Shown here piece by piece: positions 15,258-61,775 of a stretch of DNA of 64,000 bases. How positions within the stretch are numbered: the stretch's first letter is position 1; the number at the start of each line of letters is the position of its first letter. The DNA is taken from assembly GCA_029256575.1 (NCBI GenBank), contig JAQSXR010000029.1, positions 1-64,000 on the forward strand. The letters are read 5' to 3'. Below the pieces are notes generated by a model. It was not told where the DNA came from. It saw only the letters and a program-made list of their open reading frames with translations, and searched no databases. Origin of the DNA: Clostridiales bacterium (lineage in GTDB: Bacteria; Bacillota; Clostridia; Lachnospirales; JAQSXR01). Both the position numbers and the translations under genes were made by a program.

Positions 15258-15323
15258 AAAAAAAGTTGCCTCATAAACACCAATACATAAACAAATTTAT
15301 GTATTACTATTTATTTGCAACCG
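15258..15323 (-). repeat. intergenic hairpin repeat, copy 2 (terminator-like)
   Basis: On the minus strand GGTTGC...GGCAAC closes a long hairpin whose inner arms AATACATAAA/TTTATGTATT are perfectly complementary, ending in TTTTTTT. Same family as 3168-3231 and likewise sited immediately after a copy of the decayed small gene. Confidence 0.65.
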
Positions 15324-15598
15324 AACTACCGTAAGATTTATATTCTACTTTTCCTATCCATGATGTCAACTAAAAATGCCTTGTAGTCTAACTCCTCTTT
15401 TAGGCTTCAAGCTTTGTGTCCTTGACTTTCGTACAAGTTTACCTTTTCAATACTGTAATTTAATAAAGCATTAATAGGTATATTATATCTATTAATTTAG
15501 TTGTTGTCCATCTTTTTGGTGTGTTTTCCGATATGTATTACTTTATGTTTATTTATGAGAGCATCCAACATTGGGGAAATCTTAGAATTTATATTCAT
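15307..15598 (-). pseudogene. decayed small gene, copy 2 (about 97 codons, two stops, one frameshift)
   Basis: From ATG 15598, preceded by GGAGGTGG, one frame reads MNINSKISPMLDALINKHKV...KKMDNN, then a TAA. It continues INRYNIPINALLNYS...YESQGHKA, then a TGA, and continues SLKEELDYKAFLVDIMD. After a one-base shift it ends KVEYKSYGSSVAN. The last 25 residues match the remnant at 3219-3335. The intact ancestor would be about 97 residues; I do not recognise it. Loss by three small lesions with the ribosome site still intact indicates recent inactivation. Confidence 0.55.
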
Positions 15599-27754: not shown

Positions 27755-27957
27755 CTTGCATTCAGTTCGTGTTGGCAGGTTTTCCGACTTAGAAATCAAC
27801 GCTTGCTTTCCCTTCCCAGGTTTCCCCAGTGGTTGTTTTTCAACAAAAGTAGCTCAATCAATACGGCAGCAGGACTGTTTAGGACTTACACCTAATTCCC
27901 TATTATCATACCCATAAATAAACTTATTGTATGCACCTAACACTCATTATTATTTTC
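27755..27957 (-). promoter_or_regulatory. cobalamin riboswitch
   Basis: Reading the minus strand, the leader contains the hallmark blocks of the B12 aptamer in order: GTTAGGTGCA, GGGAATTAGGTGTAAGTCC, GTCCTGCTGCCG, CCACTGGGGAAACCTGGGAA, and the B12-box-like CTAAGTCGGAAAACCTGCC. A terminator sits between it and btuF. Established class (adenosylcobalamin-type); the 5' edge follows the promoter at 27963-27991 and both ends are approximate. Confidence 0.92.
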
Positions 27958-53966: not shown

Positions 53967-55268
53967 CTATCTAAATAAACCAATTGCTCTAAATAATAAT
54001 GAATTTTTATTAATATCCAATGGCGGTGTACTTAACCCTAAAGTAATTATTCTATATATATACACTGCTAGCAGTAATATTACTGTAAACATTAATAACA
54101 TCTTAAACCATTTCTTTGGATTCCCATTATCAATTATAAGATATACAACTACGATAGCGATTGGAAATATTGGATGCCATTTAAATGCCTGAGCAAAATC
54201 AAGATGCAATACACTAATCCAAGCCCTAGTCATTCCACAGGTTGGGCAAGGTACTCCAATCGTTGCTTTAATTATGCACTTTATATCCGTGATATACATA
54301 AATACAACAATCAAACCAAGTACGATACACCATATTAACACTTTTTTTTCTTTATCCTTAATAATTAATCTTGCTTGATCATCTATGTCGATTGCTTTGT
54401 ATACTTCCTTTGTTTCATCACCAACAATTATAACATTATTTCCTATAATATTAGAATGATTTTTATAAAAATCCATATACCCTTTATCTGTTAAGTTATT
54501 ATAATATTCTTCGAAATTATTTAGAACTTCACCGATTAACTGGCTTCTCGTACACTTACTATTTTCGAGTTGGACGATAGATCCTGCTATTTCTTGTATT
54601 TCATTTGGAAATTCTTCATTTTTTGTTGAAAAGTTAATACCAATCCCTAGAATTGCGTATTCCAATTTGCGACTTTCAAATTCTATCGCACCTTCTGTCA
54701 GAATACCACAAACCTTTTTTTCATTTATAAACAAATCATTAACCCACTTAATCCCCACACTAGCTCCTGTTAAAGTTTCAATTGCTTCTGCAACTGCAAC
54801 GGAAGCCGCAACTGTAATAAAAAGTGTATCATTTATGTCAATCTGTGGTCTCAAAACAATACTCATATAAATGCCAGTCTTCGAAGGTGAGAAGAAGCTT
54901 CTCCCTCTTCGTCCTTTTCCGTCTGTTTGTTCCTCAGAAATTACAACAAGCCCTTCTTTGGCACCATTTTGTGTTAAATCTTTTGCTAACGTATTCGTTG
55001 AGGTAACTGTTTTAAATACCTGTAGCTCATTTCCTAACGATTTTGTTTTCAAGTTCATCTTAATACTTGTCTCTGAGATTATATCACTTTTTTCTTTTAA
55101 GCAATAACCTCTATTCGTAACTGCCTCGATTATATACCCTTCTGATTTAAGATTATTAATTATCTTCCAAACAGCAGCTCTTGATATATTTAGCTTCGCA
55201 GCAATTTCGCTTCCAGATACACTTTTCCCTTTATTCTCTTCTAAAAATTCAATTACTCGTGTTTTCAT
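53967..55268 (-). CDS. birA: BirA biotin ligase/repressor fused to DUF2752 membrane domain
   Basis: Residues 1-65 are the winged-helix DNA-binding domain (SGSEIAAKLNISRAAVWKII). Residues about 85-270 are the biotin-protein ligase core with SEEQTDGKGRRGRSF (biotinyl-AMP loop) and GIKWVNDLFINEKKVCGIL. The last, SH3-like domain is cut short after AIDIDDQARLIIKDKEKK: the usual GEISIR-type ending is missing. From residue 310 (VLIWCIVLGLIVVFMYI) a DUF2752 domain follows, with its VPCPTCGMTRAW motif and C-terminal TMs. The junction (about 54341) lies in an A-rich run. The fusion probably arose by deletion between two adjacent genes; ligase activity may be impaired. Confidence 0.85.
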   Translation of the reverse strand: MKTRVIEFLEENKGKSVSGSEIAAKLNISRAAVWKIINNLKSEGYIIEAVTNRGYCLKEKSDIISETSIKMNLKTKSLGNELQVFKTVTSTNTLAKDLTQNGAKEGLVVISEEQTDGKGRRGRSFFSPSKTGIYMSIVLRPQIDINDTLFITVAASVAVAEAIETLTGASVGIKWVNDLFINEKKVCGILTEGAIEFESRKLEYAILGIGINFSTKNEEFPNEIQEIAGSIVQLENSKCTRSQLIGEVLNNFEEYYNNLTDKGYMDFYKNHSNIIGNNVIIVGDETKEVYKAIDIDDQARLIIKDKEKKVLIWCIVLGLIVVFMYITDIKCIIKATIGVPCPTCGMTRAWISVLHLDFAQAFKWHPIFPIAIVVVYLIIDNGNPKKWFKMLLMFTVILLLAVYIYRIITLGLSTPPLDINKNSLLFRAIGLFR

Positions 55269-55533: not shown

Positions 55534-57366
55534 ATGTGTGGTTTTGTAGGTTTTACAGGGGAAATAGAAAATAAAGAAGTTGTTCTTGAAAATATGATGA
55601 ACACTATTGTTCATAGGGGACCAGATAGTGCTGGTATTTATACTGATGAGGATATTGCCCTCGGCTTTAGACGTCTTAGTATTATTGACCTTGAGCATGG
55701 TAGCCAACCATTGCATAACGAAGATAAATCTGTGTGGTTGATTTTTAATGGAGAAATATATAATTTCCAAGCTCTACGAGAAGAACTTATTGCAAAAGGA
55801 CATATATTTACTACTCATACCGATAGTGAAGTTTTAATACATGGATACGAAGAATATAAAGAAGATATCGTTAACAAACTTAGGGGTATGTTTGCATTTG
55901 TCATATGGGATATCAAGGAGAAATCTCTTTTCTGTGCAAGAGATCACTTTGGAATTAAGCCATTCTACTATGCAACAATGGGCGATTGCTTAATGTTTGG
56001 ATCTGAAATAAAGAGCTTTTTACCTCACCCTAGCTTTAAAAAAGAATTAAACGAAGATGCATTAAAACCATATTTAACGTTTCAATATCCTGTTACCGAT
56101 TATACTTTTTTTAAGAATGTAAATAGACTTCCAGCTGCACATTACCTTACATTTAAAAATGGAAAACTAGATATTGTTCGTTATTGGGATATTAATTTTG
56201 AACCAGAAGATAAAGGTCTTGATTATTATGTTGATGAAATCGAAAAAGCGGTAAAAGAATCGGTAGAATTCCATCGAATTAGTGATGTTAAAGTTGGGTC
56301 ATTTTTATCAAGCGGTGTTGATTCAAGTTATATAACTTCTTGCTTAATGCCTAATAAAACCTTTACTGTAGGCTTTAACCGTGAACGTTTTTCAGAAATA
56401 GATTCTGCACAAGCTTTATCTAAAATACTTAATATTGAGAGTGTTAGTAAGATGGTAACTGCGGAAGAATGTTTTGAGAATTTTTCAAAAATTCAATATC
56501 ATTGTGATGAACCAGAATCAAATCCGTCAACTATCCCACTCTTTTTCTTAGCAAAGCTTGCTAGAGAACATGTAACCGTTATTCTTTCAGGAGAAGGTGC
56601 GGACGAGATATTTGGTGGATATCCATTATATAGAACACCATTTTCTGTTCAAAAATATCAAAGAATAATTCCTAAATTTATTCGTAAACCTCTCGGATTA
56701 CTTGCGACTAAATTACCTGATATGCATGGAAAGAAGTTTCTTCTCAAAGGCGGCGCGCCAGTTGAGAAACATTTTGTAGGCCAAGCTTATATTTTCGATG
56801 AAAAAGATGCTAAAAAGTTATTAAATCCAAAGTTTAGAAATGGCCCATCTGTTGATGATTTAATTCAACCAATTTATGATCGTGTTAAAGACAAGGATGA
56901 TGTAACAAAGATGCAATACCTTGACTTTCACCTTTGGATGCCAAAAGATATCTTATTAAAAGCTGATAAAATGAGTATGGCGAGTTCCATAGAACTTCGC
57001 GTACCATTCCTAGATAAAGAAGTTGTTGAACTTGCAAGAAAAATACCAAGTAAATATAGAGTAAACAATATAAATACAAAGTATGTTTTTAGACAAGCTG
57101 CAAATCGTATGTTACCAGATGAATGGGCTTCTCGTAAGAAGATTGGATTCCCTGTTCCTGTTACTTATTGGTTAAGAGAAGAAAAGTACTACAATATTGT
57201 AAAAGCTTCTTTCTTATCCGAACAAGCGAAACAATTTTTTGATACAAATACATTAGTTAAGATGCTTGATGCTCATTATAGTGAGAAGAAAAACTATGGA
57301 CGAAAACTATGGACGATATATACATTTCTAGTTTGGTATAACAAATTCTTTATCGAGCTAAATTAA
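55534..57366 (+). CDS. asnB: glutamine-dependent asparagine synthase (AsnB/AsnH type)
   Basis: A 610-residue amidotransferase. Cys2 (MCGFVGFTG) starts the glutaminase domain with NTIVHRGPDSAG and IFNGEIYNF. The synthetase domain has the PP-loop VGSFLSSGVDSSYIT, followed by LSGEGADEIFGGY and RVPFLDKEVVELA. It is full length. It could make free asparagine, but its place upstream of an ATP-grasp ligase (14 bases) and an aspartate racemase suggests amidation of a D-aspartyl residue, as AsnH does in lactic acid bacteria. Which is true cannot be read from the sequence. Confidence 0.92.
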   Translation: MCGFVGFTGEIENKEVVLENMMNTIVHRGPDSAGIYTDEDIALGFRRLSIIDLEHGSQPLHNEDKSVWLIFNGEIYNFQALREELIAKGHIFTTHTDSEVLIHGYEEYKEDIVNKLRGMFAFVIWDIKEKSLFCARDHFGIKPFYYATMGDCLMFGSEIKSFLPHPSFKKELNEDALKPYLTFQYPVTDYTFFKNVNRLPAAHYLTFKNGKLDIVRYWDINFEPEDKGLDYYVDEIEKAVKESVEFHRISDVKVGSFLSSGVDSSYITSCLMPNKTFTVGFNRERFSEIDSAQALSKILNIESVSKMVTAEECFENFSKIQYHCDEPESNPSTIPLFFLAKLAREHVTVILSGEGADEIFGGYPLYRTPFSVQKYQRIIPKFIRKPLGLLATKLPDMHGKKFLLKGGAPVEKHFVGQAYIFDEKDAKKLLNPKFRNGPSVDDLIQPIYDRVKDKDDVTKMQYLDFHLWMPKDILLKADKMSMASSIELRVPFLDKEVVELARKIPSKYRVNNINTKYVFRQAANRMLPDEWASRKKIGFPVPVTYWLREEKYYNIVKASFLSEQAKQFFDTNTLVKMLDAHYSEKKNYGRKLWTIYTFLVWYNKFFIELN

Positions 57367-57380
57367 GGGAGGACGAAAAT

Positions 57381-58607
57381 ATGTCAACTGAAAAGATAGA
57401 TTTTTTACCAGTATTACTTGGAAGTGATGCAAATGCTTATGGATTATCACGTTCTTTCCACTCTCAATATGGAATTAAGCCGCTAGTTGTAGGAAGGACG
57501 AGATTCACTCCTACATACAATAGTCATATATTTGATTTTGAATATGTTGATAATCTTGGTGATCCAGAGGTTATGGTAGCTGCATTAATTAAGATAGCAA
57601 AACGCAACCCAAATAAAAAACTTCTATTACTTTCTTGTGGTGATGATTATGTTAAATTAATCGTAAGAAATCGCGAAAGGCTAAAAGAATATTATGAATT
57701 ACCTTTCTTAGATGAAGCTTTGATGGATAGACTTTGCTTAAAAGAAAACTTCTATGACGTATGTCGTGAGTATGATTTTGCTTTTCCGCAAACGGTTCAA
57801 TGTACGTTCGAAGAACATTCAAACTTAGAACTGCCTTTTGAATATCCTATCATCATTAAACCTTCTAATAGTGTTGAATATTGGAAGTGTTCTTTCCCTG
57901 GAAAGAAAAAAGTGTTTATTGCGAATTCTCAAGCAGAACGTGACGCAATGTTCGCCGCTATATATGCTTCTAGCTATAAAGACACATTAATCATTCAAGA
58001 ATACATTCCTGGCGATGACTCATACATGCGCGTTCTTAACTGCTATTCTGGAAGAGACGGCAAAGTAAAATTAATGTCACTCGGACATGCCCTTTTAGAG
58101 GAACATACCCCTCAAGGTATCGGTAGCTATGCTGCCATAATGAGTACGTATGACCCTGCGATTCTAGAAAAATTTAAGAACTTTTTAGAAGCTGTTGGGT
58201 ACGTTGGTTTCTCAAACTTTGATATGAAATTTGACTATAGAGACAATACTTATAAACTATTTGAAATAAATCTTCGTTCAGGAAGATCCAGTTTTTATGT
58301 TACTGCTGCTGGATATAACTTAGCGAAATATGTAACCGAAGACTTTATTTTTAATAAACCAATGGATATTACTTATGCTACAAATAAACACCTTTGGTTA
58401 ATGATACCAAAGCAAGTATTGTTTAAATATCTTCCAAATGAACAATTAAAGCAGGAAGCAAAGCAATTAATAAAAAACGGAGAATATACACATTCTCTTT
58501 TCTATAAACCAGACTTTAGTTTCAAAAGATACCTTAAATTATGTTTAAGCTACTTTAATTACTTTAAAAAATACAAAAAATACTATGGCAAAAAAGGATT
58601 ATCCTAA
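57381..58607 (+). CDS. ATP-grasp carboxylate-amine ligase, candidate D-aspartate ligase
   Basis: A 408-residue ATP-grasp enzyme. The N-terminal preATP-grasp part is PVLLGSDANAYGLSRSFHSQ. The ATP loop region is YPIIIKPSNSVEYWKCSFPG, followed by TLIIQEYIPGDDSYMRVLNC, and the metal site is YKLFEINLRSGRSSFYVTAA. Its C-terminal 60 residues are basic and may sit on the membrane. Overall plan and neighbours match the D-aspartate ligases (Asl) that put D-Asp on peptidoglycan precursors in enterococci and lactococci. GGGAGG precedes the ATG; the stop overlaps the racemase start by one base. Confidence 0.8.
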   Translation: MSTEKIDFLPVLLGSDANAYGLSRSFHSQYGIKPLVVGRTRFTPTYNSHIFDFEYVDNLGDPEVMVAALIKIAKRNPNKKLLLLSCGDDYVKLIVRNRERLKEYYELPFLDEALMDRLCLKENFYDVCREYDFAFPQTVQCTFEEHSNLELPFEYPIIIKPSNSVEYWKCSFPGKKKVFIANSQAERDAMFAAIYASSYKDTLIIQEYIPGDDSYMRVLNCYSGRDGKVKLMSLGHALLEEHTPQGIGSYAAIMSTYDPAILEKFKNFLEAVGYVGFSNFDMKFDYRDNTYKLFEINLRSGRSSFYVTAAGYNLAKYVTEDFIFNKPMDITYATNKHLWLMIPKQVLFKYLPNEQLKQEAKQLIKNGEYTHSLFYKPDFSFKRYLKLCLSYFNYFKKYKKYYGKKGLS

Positions 58608-59308
58608 TGAGTGAAAAAAGACTTGGAATTTTGGGCGGTCTAGGCCCTCTCGCAACTGTATATTTTTGTGAAATGTTAATAAAAATGACTGACGCAAATA
58701 CAGATCAAGAACATATAGATATGATAATAAACAGTCATGCAAGTGTTCCAGACAGAACAGCATATATACTTGGGAAAAGTTCAGAAAATCCCCTCCCAGT
58801 TCTTATCGAAGATGCAAAACAACTAGAGGTCCTTGGTGTTGACTTCCTTGCTATGCCTTGTAATACAGCTCACTATTTTTATCAAGAATTGAGTCGTACT
58901 GTAAACACCCCCTTCGTTGATATGGTTGGTGAAACAGTTCAATTTATTAAGAGTTCCGGTGTAAAATGTGTAGGTATACTTGCAACAGATGGTACAATCT
59001 CCGGAAAGCATTATCAAAAAGAATGTATGAAGCATGGTGTCAACTACTCGATTCCTTCAGAACCTTCTCAAAAAGCACTTATGAGCATAATATATGATAA
59101 TATAAAAGCAGGAAAACCTGTAGATATGGAAAGCTTCAACAAAGTAATCAATGAAATGAAAACAAAAGGCTGTGATGCTGTTATTCTCGGATGTACAGAG
59201 CTATCAATAATTAAAAAAGACTATCATTTAGATTCGTACTATGTTGATTCTCTCGAAATGCTCGCCATTTCTACAATTAAGGCATGTGGTAAAAAAGTAA
59301 AGAAATAA
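58607..59308 (+). CDS. aspartate/glutamate racemase family protein, probable aspartate racemase
   Basis: PLP-independent racemase of 233 residues with both catalytic cysteines: DFLAMPCNTAHYFY (first) and AVILGCTELSII (second). The N-terminal GILGGLGPLATVYFCEMLIK is the aspartate racemase signature. Translation is coupled to the ATP-grasp ligase (one-base overlap), so it should supply its D-amino acid, most simply D-Asp. The stop codon is followed at once by a REP-like palindrome. Confidence 0.9.
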   Translation: MSEKRLGILGGLGPLATVYFCEMLIKMTDANTDQEHIDMIINSHASVPDRTAYILGKSSENPLPVLIEDAKQLEVLGVDFLAMPCNTAHYFYQELSRTVNTPFVDMVGETVQFIKSSGVKCVGILATDGTISGKHYQKECMKHGVNYSIPSEPSQKALMSIIYDNIKAGKPVDMESFNKVINEMKTKGCDAVILGCTELSIIKKDYHLDSYYVDSLEMLAISTIKACGKKVKK

Positions 59309-59408
59309 TGATACAATGGGGACGGTTCTTTTTGTATCAAAGTGATACAGTGGGGACGGTTCTTTTTGTATCACTTTGATACAAAAAGAACCGTCCCCAC
59401 TGTATCAT
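59308..59408. repeat. REP-like palindrome (GGGGACGGTTCTT type), copy 2
   Basis: One unit (GATACAATGGGGACGGTTC, then TTTTTGTATCA) followed by a perfect inverted pair with arms of about 30 bases (59344-59406). It starts directly after the racemase stop and can act as a terminator. Same family as 35108-35184. Confidence 0.85.
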
Positions 59409-59412
59409 TACC

Positions 59413-59441
59413 TTGATTTTTCCAATTAATTATGATATTAT
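59413..59441 (+). promoter_or_regulatory. promoter of the MutS2-like gene leader
   Basis: TTGATT (59413-59418), 17 bases, TATTAT (59436-59441). Predicted transcript start near 59449, about 320 bases before the coding region. Confidence 0.5.
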
Positions 59442-59448
59442 ATATTTA

Positions 59449-59768
59449 TCTTAAAGAAACGTGAGGAAAGTTTATGTTAGCGTAATTGTAAAAGTGTAAC
59501 CAACTAAATAAGTTGGAAGGGTATTGTTTTATATCCTTTTTTTAGTATGCCTTTTTTTCATACTGGAAACATTATTTACAAATCAAGCTACATTAGACTT
59601 ATCCTATGCTATTATCTTCTTTTATTCTATTATTTTATAATAAAAGTTGGTTTATTATAGTATTATATTTGCGTCTATTGTGTAACTGGTTTGCGGTTGC
59701 ACTTTTTTTATTGTTCAATTTTATTATAACAATAATCGATCACTTAAATATAGACTGGAGAAATAATA
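59449..59768 (+). promoter_or_regulatory. structured leader with upstream ORF and attenuator-like hairpins
   Basis: The leader holds GAGGAAAG followed by a three-codon ORF ATG-TTA-GCG-TAA (59474-59485). After it come a CCAACT/AGTTGG hairpin (59500-59516) and AAGGGTAT/ATATCCTT with a T-run (about 59517-59543), which is terminator-like. AGTATG/CATACT (59544-59564) and TATAATAAA/TTTATTATA (59637-59658) follow. The last structure is GTGTAAC/GTTGCAC with TTTTTTT (59680-59709), also terminator-like. AAAAGTGTAACC (59490-59501) could instead pair with GGTTGCACTTTT (59695-59706), enclosing the whole and competing with the last terminator. This layout suggests translation-coupled attenuation. Pairings were read by eye. 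Confidence 0.5.
59680..59709 (+). terminator. leader terminator ahead of the MutS2-like gene
   Basis: GTGTAAC / GTTGCAC stem (one G-U pair) with nine-base loop and seven T residues, 60 bases before the start codon, so most transcripts could end here unless antiterminated. Confidence 0.55.
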
Positions 59769-61775
59769 ATGAATACAACTTTTAACACTTTAGAATTTGA
59801 TAAAATACTTACTACATTAGCGGAATATGCTTGTTCACAGCGTGTAAAAAACAGGATACTTGACTTAAAACCATACCTTGATGAGTTTGAAGTTTATCAA
59901 AAAACGAAAGACACTACAGAAGCAAAATTAATAATAGAAACACTAAGTAATCCCCCATTGACTACAATGGACTCTATCGATAAAATCCTTGGCCTTTTAG
60001 GGAAGGATTGTGCACTAACCGTTGATCACCTAACAAAACTTGAACAATTTTTGAATGCATGCCGAAGGATGAAGGTTTACCTTAATCGAGCAGAATATCT
60101 AAATGTGGATATTGCAACTTATGGCGCTTCCATAAATCCAATGGATGAATTGTATAATGAAATAAATCGAAGTATTAGAAATGGTGCTGTATCGGATACT
60201 GCTTCAACTCAACTACGTGATATACGACGAAGTCTCGAAGGATATCAAGAACAAATAAAGAATAAACTTGAAAATATGCTTAGGACCAACAAAAAATGGT
60301 ATGCAGATAACTACTATACTATTAGAAATGGGCATTTTACACTTCCTGTAAAAAGTGAATTTAAAAGTCAAGTTAATGGGTCTGTCATAGACAAATCACA
60401 AACAGGGAGTACGTTCTTTATAGAACCTACTATCGTGAATAAATTACAAGGTGAAATTTTATCTCTTAAAATAGATGAAGAGAATGAAGTAATTAGAATT
60501 CTATATACCCTTACTGACCTTGTAGAAAAGTATTCCAGTGAACTTAACATTAATGTTGAAGCGATAGAGATTCTTGATTTTATCTTTGCGAAGGCAAAAC
60601 TTAGCATTCATATGAAGTCAATTCCTGTACCAATTAATACAAATAAAGAAATAATTATAAATCAAGGTCGTCATCCACTCCTAAATGAAGCTACTGCTAT
60701 TCCACTTGACTTTCGTATTGGTGTAGATGGGATAACTGGAGTAATCATAACTGGCCCTAATACTGGTGGAAAAACTGTTGCACTAAAAACTGTGGGCTTA
60801 CTCTCATTAATGGCGCAATCAGGATTACACGTTCCTGTAAAAGAGGGTAGTAAATTTTCGATGCATAATATCGTACTATGTGATATTGGAGACGGTCAGA
60901 GTATTACTGAAAATTTATCAACTTTTTCATCACACATTACAAATATTATTTCAATTATAGAATCCGCTACTTTTGAGAGCCTCGTTTTATTAGATGAACT
61001 AGGTTCAGGGACTGACCCAAACGAAGGAATGGGAATAGCTGTAGCCATACTTGAAGAACTAAAAGCAAAGAAATGTCTCATCGTTGCGACTACTCACTAC
61101 CCAGAGGTTAAGATTTTTACACAGAATACCCCTGGTTTTATCAATGCTAGAATGACATTTGACCGAGAAAATTTGAAACCAGAATACAAACTAGAGATAG
61201 GTGAAGCCGGCGAAAGCTGTGCATTATACATCTCAAAACGTTTGGGATTACCTATTCATATGGTTCAAAGGGCTTATCACATTGCATACGGTCCAAGTGA
61301 ATTAACGTCAAAACCTGAACTGTCTAAGAGTAATTATGATATTGAAGATATTTCTGAAGTTAATAAAGTTGTTTCTGAAGTTCTTGATGAAGTTTCAGAA
61401 GTTAAGAAGCATTCTCAAGCAAGCTTGCCAAATATTATCAAAAGAGTGGAACCTAAACCAAAGATTTCTACAAATCAAACGCGCCGTGATAAATTCTCAA
61501 TTGGAGATAGTGTAATTGTCTATCCACAGAAGTTAACTGGTATTATATATACTACTACTAACGAAAAAGGCGAATTAGGAGTTCAAATAAAAGGTAAGAA
61601 ACAATTTATTAATCATAAACGATTACAACTTCGTGTTGCAGCAAAAGAGTTATACCCCGAGGATTATGATTTTTCAACCATTTTTGATTCTGTTGAAAAA
61701 AGAAAAGCAACTCATGTGCTTTCAAAAAGATATGACCCAAATATTGTAATCAATCATTCTAATACAGACTTGTGA
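59769..61775 (+). CDS. MutS2-like ATPase lacking the Smr domain
   Basis: A 668-residue protein of the MutS2 family: helical clamp/lever region (residues 1-300), ATPase with Walker A ITGPNTGGKTVAL near 330, DIGDGQSITENLSTFSSHI, Walker B LVLLDELGSGTDPNEG and TTHYPEVK. It then has a coiled segment rich in EVS/DEVS repeats and a KOW-like beta domain (FSIGDSVIVYPQKLTGIIY). The C-terminal Smr nuclease of classical MutS2 (about 785 residues) is absent. B. subtilis MutS2 also splits collided ribosomes, so a ribosome-linked role is possible and would fit the attenuator-like leader. GGAGAAATAAT precedes the ATG. Confidence 0.85.
   Translation: MNTTFNTLEFDKILTTLAEYACSQRVKNRILDLKPYLDEFEVYQKTKDTTEAKLIIETLSNPPLTTMDSIDKILGLLGKDCALTVDHLTKLEQFLNACRRMKVYLNRAEYLNVDIATYGASINPMDELYNEINRSIRNGAVSDTASTQLRDIRRSLEGYQEQIKNKLENMLRTNKKWYADNYYTIRNGHFTLPVKSEFKSQVNGSVIDKSQTGSTFFIEPTIVNKLQGEILSLKIDEENEVIRILYTLTDLVEKYSSELNINVEAIEILDFIFAKAKLSIHMKSIPVPINTNKEIIINQGRHPLLNEATAIPLDFRIGVDGITGVIITGPNTGGKTVALKTVGLLSLMAQSGLHVPVKEGSKFSMHNIVLCDIGDGQSITENLSTFSSHITNIISIIESATFESLVLLDELGSGTDPNEGMGIAVAILEELKAKKCLIVATTHYPEVKIFTQNTPGFINARMTFDRENLKPEYKLEIGEAGESCALYISKRLGLPIHMVQRAYHIAYGPSELTSKPELSKSNYDIEDISEVNKVVSEVLDEVSEVKKHSQASLPNIIKRVEPKPKISTNQTRRDKFSIGDSVIVYPQKLTGIIYTTTNEKGELGVQIKGKKQFINHKRLQLRVAAKELYPEDYDFSTIFDSVEKRKATHVLSKRYDPNIVINHSNTDL

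Follow-up and report, generated by a model that had tools for sequence, protein, structure and literature searches.

Organization of the locus

In the window, a stretch of 64,000 nucleotides from a Clostridiales bacterium (positions 1 to 64,000 of contig JAQSXR010000029.1), we have identified on the forward strand a gene for a 668-aa Smr-less MutS2-like ATPase (59769–61775), with its ribosome binding site TGGAG at 59756–59760. The leader directly upstream (59449–59768, 320 nt) and the regulatory elements described for it lie on the same strand. A promoter-like site, TTGATT-17-TATTAT with TG before the second hexamer, was located by consensus scan at 59413–59441; a promoter had been claimed in the initial annotation and such a site is indeed there, yet its kind is not found above chance (20 sites vs. 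17.3 in shuffles). The upstream open reading frame (uORF) ATG TTA GCG TAA (MLA*) is present as first described at 59474–59485, preceded by its ribosome binding site, GAGGAAAG, at 59463–59470. Likewise, the several hairpins expected in the leader appear in the minimum free energy (MFE) fold of 59449–59768. One of them, stem I (the putative anti-antiterminator), has a 5′ arm that contains the uORF (59464–59497) and a 3′ arm at 59569–59605, with three internal hairpins at 59500–59516, 59517–59538 and 59540–59568. Two T-run terminators had been proposed, of which only one passes the terminator scan and is supported by folding, namely an intrinsic terminator at 59680–59709 made of the stem 59680–59688/59694–59702 followed by T7; the first T-run follows the AT-rich hairpin 59517–59538, itself an internal arm of stem I. 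An Rfam covariance-model search of the window leader returned nothing at gathering score, and a search of the window together with 19 loci returned no leader family, the matches in the loci being sub-threshold and chance-like.

The downstream protein belongs to a separate MutS2 clade

The description of the downstream gene as MutS2-like and Smr-less is confirmed. The protein scores 568.9 bits against TIGR01069 (mutS2; cut-off 400), and no match to Smr (PF01713) is obtained even at E ≤ 1, as against 86.4 bits for the canonical MutS2 of the same genome (G000:C21), which has both Smr and MSSS. Its layout consists of a MutS core/clamp, a MutS_V ATPase (residues 325–505), a KOW/SH3-like domain (about 570–621) and a conserved C-terminal tail, ELYPEDYDFS..FD.VE.RK..H.M.RK. 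Retention of the KOW/SH3 (MSSS) domain was seen by profile comparison (hhalign probability 95.8%, E 6.9e-9), and a single-sequence search gave no Pfam MSSS match. With the KamC ATPase model (NF052383) the protein reaches 205 bits, below the 300 cut-off, and no defence family was matched by PADLOC. An AlphaFold model on 12 sequences had a pLDDT of 58.5, too poor for use. In comparison with Bacillus subtilis MutS2 (PMC10897456), the window protein shares the MutS core, the ABC-type ATPase and KOW, and the two are homologous over 545 residues; unlike it, the window protein lacks Smr, its linker is shortened, its conserved tail is a different one, and it falls in a separate clade. In fact, in a tree built from 125 short proteins and 18 canonical ones a fully supported branch separates the two groups.

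Relatives were found in 65/392 genomes of the order, 26/391 of the class and 26/398 of the phylum, counts obtained with strict E-value cuts that take in the genome of the window itself and a few matches that are full-length MutS2. In a first sweep, the genomes with an Smr-less copy were seen to carry a full-length MutS2 as well. Proteins of different orders and classes are mixed together in the tree (for example L127 with L047/L048, and L126–L130 with L052) and this, together with the patchy distribution, suggests that the Smr-less clade may have spread horizontally. As for gene neighbours, an exporter-type ABC ATPase (54–71% identity) lies downstream of the MutS2-like gene in five distant members (L003, L005, L107, L119 and L121), followed in the last three by an ABC-2-like membrane protein, and an ABC-F protection-like gene is found near L002. 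In L094, L096 and L097, which belong to the most divergent Smr-less branch, a small bS21-like (rpsU) gene, identified by eye from its translation, lies directly upstream. These neighbours fit a rescue factor without proving it.

Predicted switch in the window leader

The leader folds far better than its shuffled versions (MFE −73.8 vs. −53.2 ± 4.6 kcal/mol, z −4.5, 0/100 shuffles reaching it). When free of ribosomes, it is predicted to form stem I as 59464–59481/59587–59605 plus 59486–59497/59569–59581, and the terminator has a probability of 1.00. In constrained folding with a ribosome on codon 1, 2 or 3 of the uORF, assuming a footprint of about 15 nt on each side of the P site, this probability becomes 0.00, 0.08 or 0.22, respectively, and with a control mask it stays at 1.00. 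The terminator is lost in these folds through pairing of an antiterminator 5′ part (59579–59601) with a 3′ part (59670–59693) that overlaps the 5′ arm of the terminator, giving 20 bp, and early stalls add the pairing of 59490–59501 with 59695–59706. The folding is a thermodynamic one, in which part of the terminator comes back when the stall is placed at codon 3. The model predicts a three-state attenuator.

The 12-base pairing between 59490–59501 and 59695–59706 had been put forward as the element competing with the terminator. It is present, with one G-U pair, and its run is longer than any in 20 shuffles (largest 8), yet its role as a conserved main antiterminator was ruled out, the longest such run over the leaders being 7.0 vs. 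6.6 in shuffles. It would therefore be a window-specific accessory segment that only assists, the main antiterminator in the folding model being formed by the 3′ arm of stem I and the terminator 5′ arm.

Conservation of the uORF and its stem in relatives

Among the 126 relatives for which 450 nt or more of upstream sequence was available, a short uORF with a ribosome site was curated by eye in 111. These uORFs are mostly 7 or 11 codons long (for example MSVSVLN and MLSVIVMEKIAK), and 94/111 have S or L as second residue, V being frequent at positions 3–6 and also common at 8; peptides such as MYVSYSFE, MSVSR, MAKVFFN and the window's MLA show no run of one codon. In a mechanical test, the motif M[LS]x0-2[VI][VISLFYM] was found in 62% of relatives vs. 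4% of shuffled leaders, and in 0/17 leaders of canonical MutS2. A synonymous-change test gave its highest value for frame 0, yet one near the no-selection expectation. Of the 15/126 relatives without a curated uORF, most directly follow another gene or belong to the branch that diverges most: L037, L040, L045 and L084 are behind a methyltransferase, L036 behind a GNAT gene, and L094, L096 and L097 behind the bS21-like gene.

In the relatives, too, the uORF sits within the 5′ arm of a long stem. It pairs with a downstream arm in 90/112 leaders (probability > 0.4; mean over all 0.53), and an intrinsic terminator is found between uORF and gene in 102/112. With the stems given by hand on sequence-only alignments, 81.8% of stem I cells are paired in alignment A3 vs. 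31–47% when the arms are slid, with double changes in 7/14 pairs, and 87.7% vs. 32–46% in alignment A2, with double changes in 4/10 pairs; kinship between sequences inflates the double-change counts, and the slid controls carry the same kinship. Moreover, over 135 leader-terminator pairs, with the uORF masked as by a ribosome, the terminator 5′ arm paired more with the sequence before it, by +0.160 vs. +0.007 for control masks (Wilcoxon 1.4e-14, a p-value that overstates independence as the leaders are related). On computational grounds, the uORF stem and the antiterminator are predicted to be mutually exclusive, so that occupancy by a ribosome would lead to antitermination.

A conserved ORF and structure upstream of the relatives had been named beforehand as part of the check, and both are found: the parts of the leader, their conservation, the covariation of stem I and the predicted switch are plain in the sequences and the computations made on them. 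The overall idea of a stall-responsive attenuator before an Smr-less MutS2 is therefore strongly supported on comparative grounds by the uORFs, the covarying stem, the terminators and the predicted switch, but two of its details had to be revised, the three-codon ORF being atypical among the relatives and the 12-base pairing lacking conservation.

The atypical uORF of the window

In alignment A2, with 21 leaders, the window uORF shows two 1-nt gaps, and past ATG TTA the window sequence GTA ATT GTA AAA GTG aligns codon by codon, but out of frame, with TTA TCT GTA AAG GTG of L102. From the gaps and this out-of-frame match, MLA* is probably a frame-shifted form of a longer conserved uORF, produced by a real mutation or by a sequencing error. 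An in-frame GTG further upstream (59461) was considered as the start of a longer uORF and rejected, as no ribosome site precedes it. The only other leader with three codons is that of L123, a second natural case with GTG AGT GTC TAG (MSV*), whose frame, too, apparently differs from that of the related L015 (MSAVVSK).

Being out of frame with the family, the uORF could give a weakened induction in the window. Perhaps the switch has even decayed here, the frame-shifted uORF no longer stalling ribosomes and a basal terminator being left, while the relatives keep a working system. The two gaps and the rarity of three-codon leaders speak for such a decay, yet the start, the ribosome site, stem I, the antiterminator and the terminator are all intact and still switch in silico, and the frameshift could be a sequencing error; we regard decay as rather unlikely. 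Since a stall at the start codon suffices in the model, and a three-codon uORF works in VmlR (PMC9226507), the window leader may still function despite its frameshift.

A probable attenuator for a putative ribosome-rescue factor

We consider it likely that the leader is a stall-sensing transcription attenuator of an Smr-less MutS2 paralogue, whose product would most likely be a splitting (rescue) factor, made on induction, for ribosomes that antibiotics have stalled. As long as no ribosome stalls, the arm with the uORF would pair with 59569–59605 to give stem I as anti-antiterminator, the terminator at 59680–59709 would fold and transcription would end before the gene. A ribosome paused on the uORF would occupy the 5′ arm of stem I, and the freed 3′ arm (59579–59601) would pair with 59670–59693, blocking the terminator and allowing the gene to be transcribed. 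We infer that the switch responds to drugs that cause stalling, and that the protein uses its ATPase and KOW to split or recycle ribosomes.

In B. subtilis, MutS2 binds collided ribosomes via Smr and KOW and uses its ATPase to split them; cells that have lost it become sensitive to chloramphenicol, tetracycline and erythromycin (PMC10897456). Its Walker B is critical and mutants in Smr show no more than a modest erythromycin phenotype, yet deletion of Smr strongly lowers ribosome binding (PMC10897456); hence an Smr-less protein must recognise ribosomes differently. A paralogue that keeps the ATPase and KOW, lacks Smr and would be made upon stalling is best read as an inducible splitting or rescue factor, standing to MutS2, by analogy, as HflXr stands to HflX (PMC6310831).

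Leaders of comparable logic are known. That of the ABC-F gene vmlR of B. subtilis shares the three-part logic of an anti-antiterminator stem that holds a uORF, an antiterminator and an intrinsic terminator, and its uORF is of three codons (MIN); it differs in controlling an ABC-F protection factor, in its sequences and in having pausing and a hairpin that sequesters the Shine-Dalgarno (SD) sequence (PMC9226507). The cplR leader of Clostridioides difficile also has a very short uORF (MR[I/M]) in Clostridia and a terminator before the gene. Its induction by lincosamides and pleuromutilins has been demonstrated, whereas induction of the window leader by drugs is presumed, and its terminator stem also hides the SD of the gene, whereas the window SD lies more than 50 nt beyond the terminator stem (PMC10201436). 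In Listeria, hflXr/rli80 offers the case of an extra paralogue of a ribosome-splitting factor under uORF attenuation beside a housekeeping copy, as would be the window gene if its protein does split ribosomes; there the factor is the GTPase HflX and the uORF is a 14-aa one with RLR, whereas the window family has a MutS2 ATPase and V/S-rich uORFs without RLR (PMC6310831).

Stalling need not be due to drugs. The leader could respond to any slowing of translation, amino-acid shortage for example, the gene then being a general ribosome-rescue factor. Starvation stalls ribosomes too, and valine and serine abound in the uORFs, but their composition varies with no single-codon run, the controlled gene is not biosynthetic, and drug-sensing leaders, those of VmlR and CplR among them, typically have very short uORFs (PMC9226507, PMC10201436), which makes this reading improbable. 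A role of the protein on DNA, in recombination or repair, with a leader that only limits expression, would agree with the endonuclease annotation of MutS2 proteins (the name of TIGR01069) and with the place of MutS2 in the DNA-repair MutS superfamily; against it, Smr is absent and KOW is kept, and a leader that reads stalling is hard to square with a DNA role, so that we find it very improbable. Finally, chance AT-rich hairpins without any regulation, to which the near-chance regional counts of promoters and terminators could point, are contradicted by the family-wide uORF conservation, the covariation and the fold z-score, and this explanation is close to negligible.

Taking the stall-sensing attenuator of a rescue factor further, the Smr-less MutS2 proteins may form a phylum-wide family of ATPases that split ribosomes upon induction by drugs, a class of resistance alongside ARE-ABC-F and HflXr that is triggered by stalling on V/S-rich uORFs, a proposal we hold to be evenly poised. 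Among the open-access papers covered by our search, we found no earlier report of this system. Should the proposal hold, a family now annotated as “endonuclease MutS2” would be an unrecognised inducible ribosome-rescue or antibiotic-tolerance system, spread over many Clostridia and further bacteria of the phylum, and MutS2 would be, after HflX with its copy HflXr, a second ribosome-splitting factor to have been duplicated and put under stall-sensing control. It would moreover provide more than 100 leader peptides from nature on which context-specific drug stalling could be studied, and the need of MutS2-type splitting for Smr would become directly testable.

Other features of the window

Immediately 5′ of the leader, at 59315–59406, lies a palindromic repeat, GGGGACGGTTCTTTTTGTATC, of which the genome has 79 exact copies (41 forward, 38 reverse), with four in the window. 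It may serve as a terminator for the racemase gene; the miRNA-like Rfam matches fall on this repeat and were discarded as spurious. Upstream of it, closely packed genes at 55534–59308 code for an asparagine synthase, an ATP-grasp-like protein whose matches to families are only weak, and an amino-acid racemase that scores above the cut-off for cysteate racemase CuyB, possibly a small biosynthetic cluster. Two riboswitches were detected on the reverse strand, a cobalamin riboswitch at 27757–27956 (92.3 bits) and a c-di-GMP-I riboswitch at 15313–15453 (53.9 bits). On the same strand, at 53967–55268, a BirA-like biotin ligase (HTH_11 and BPL) is fused in one frame to DUF2752.
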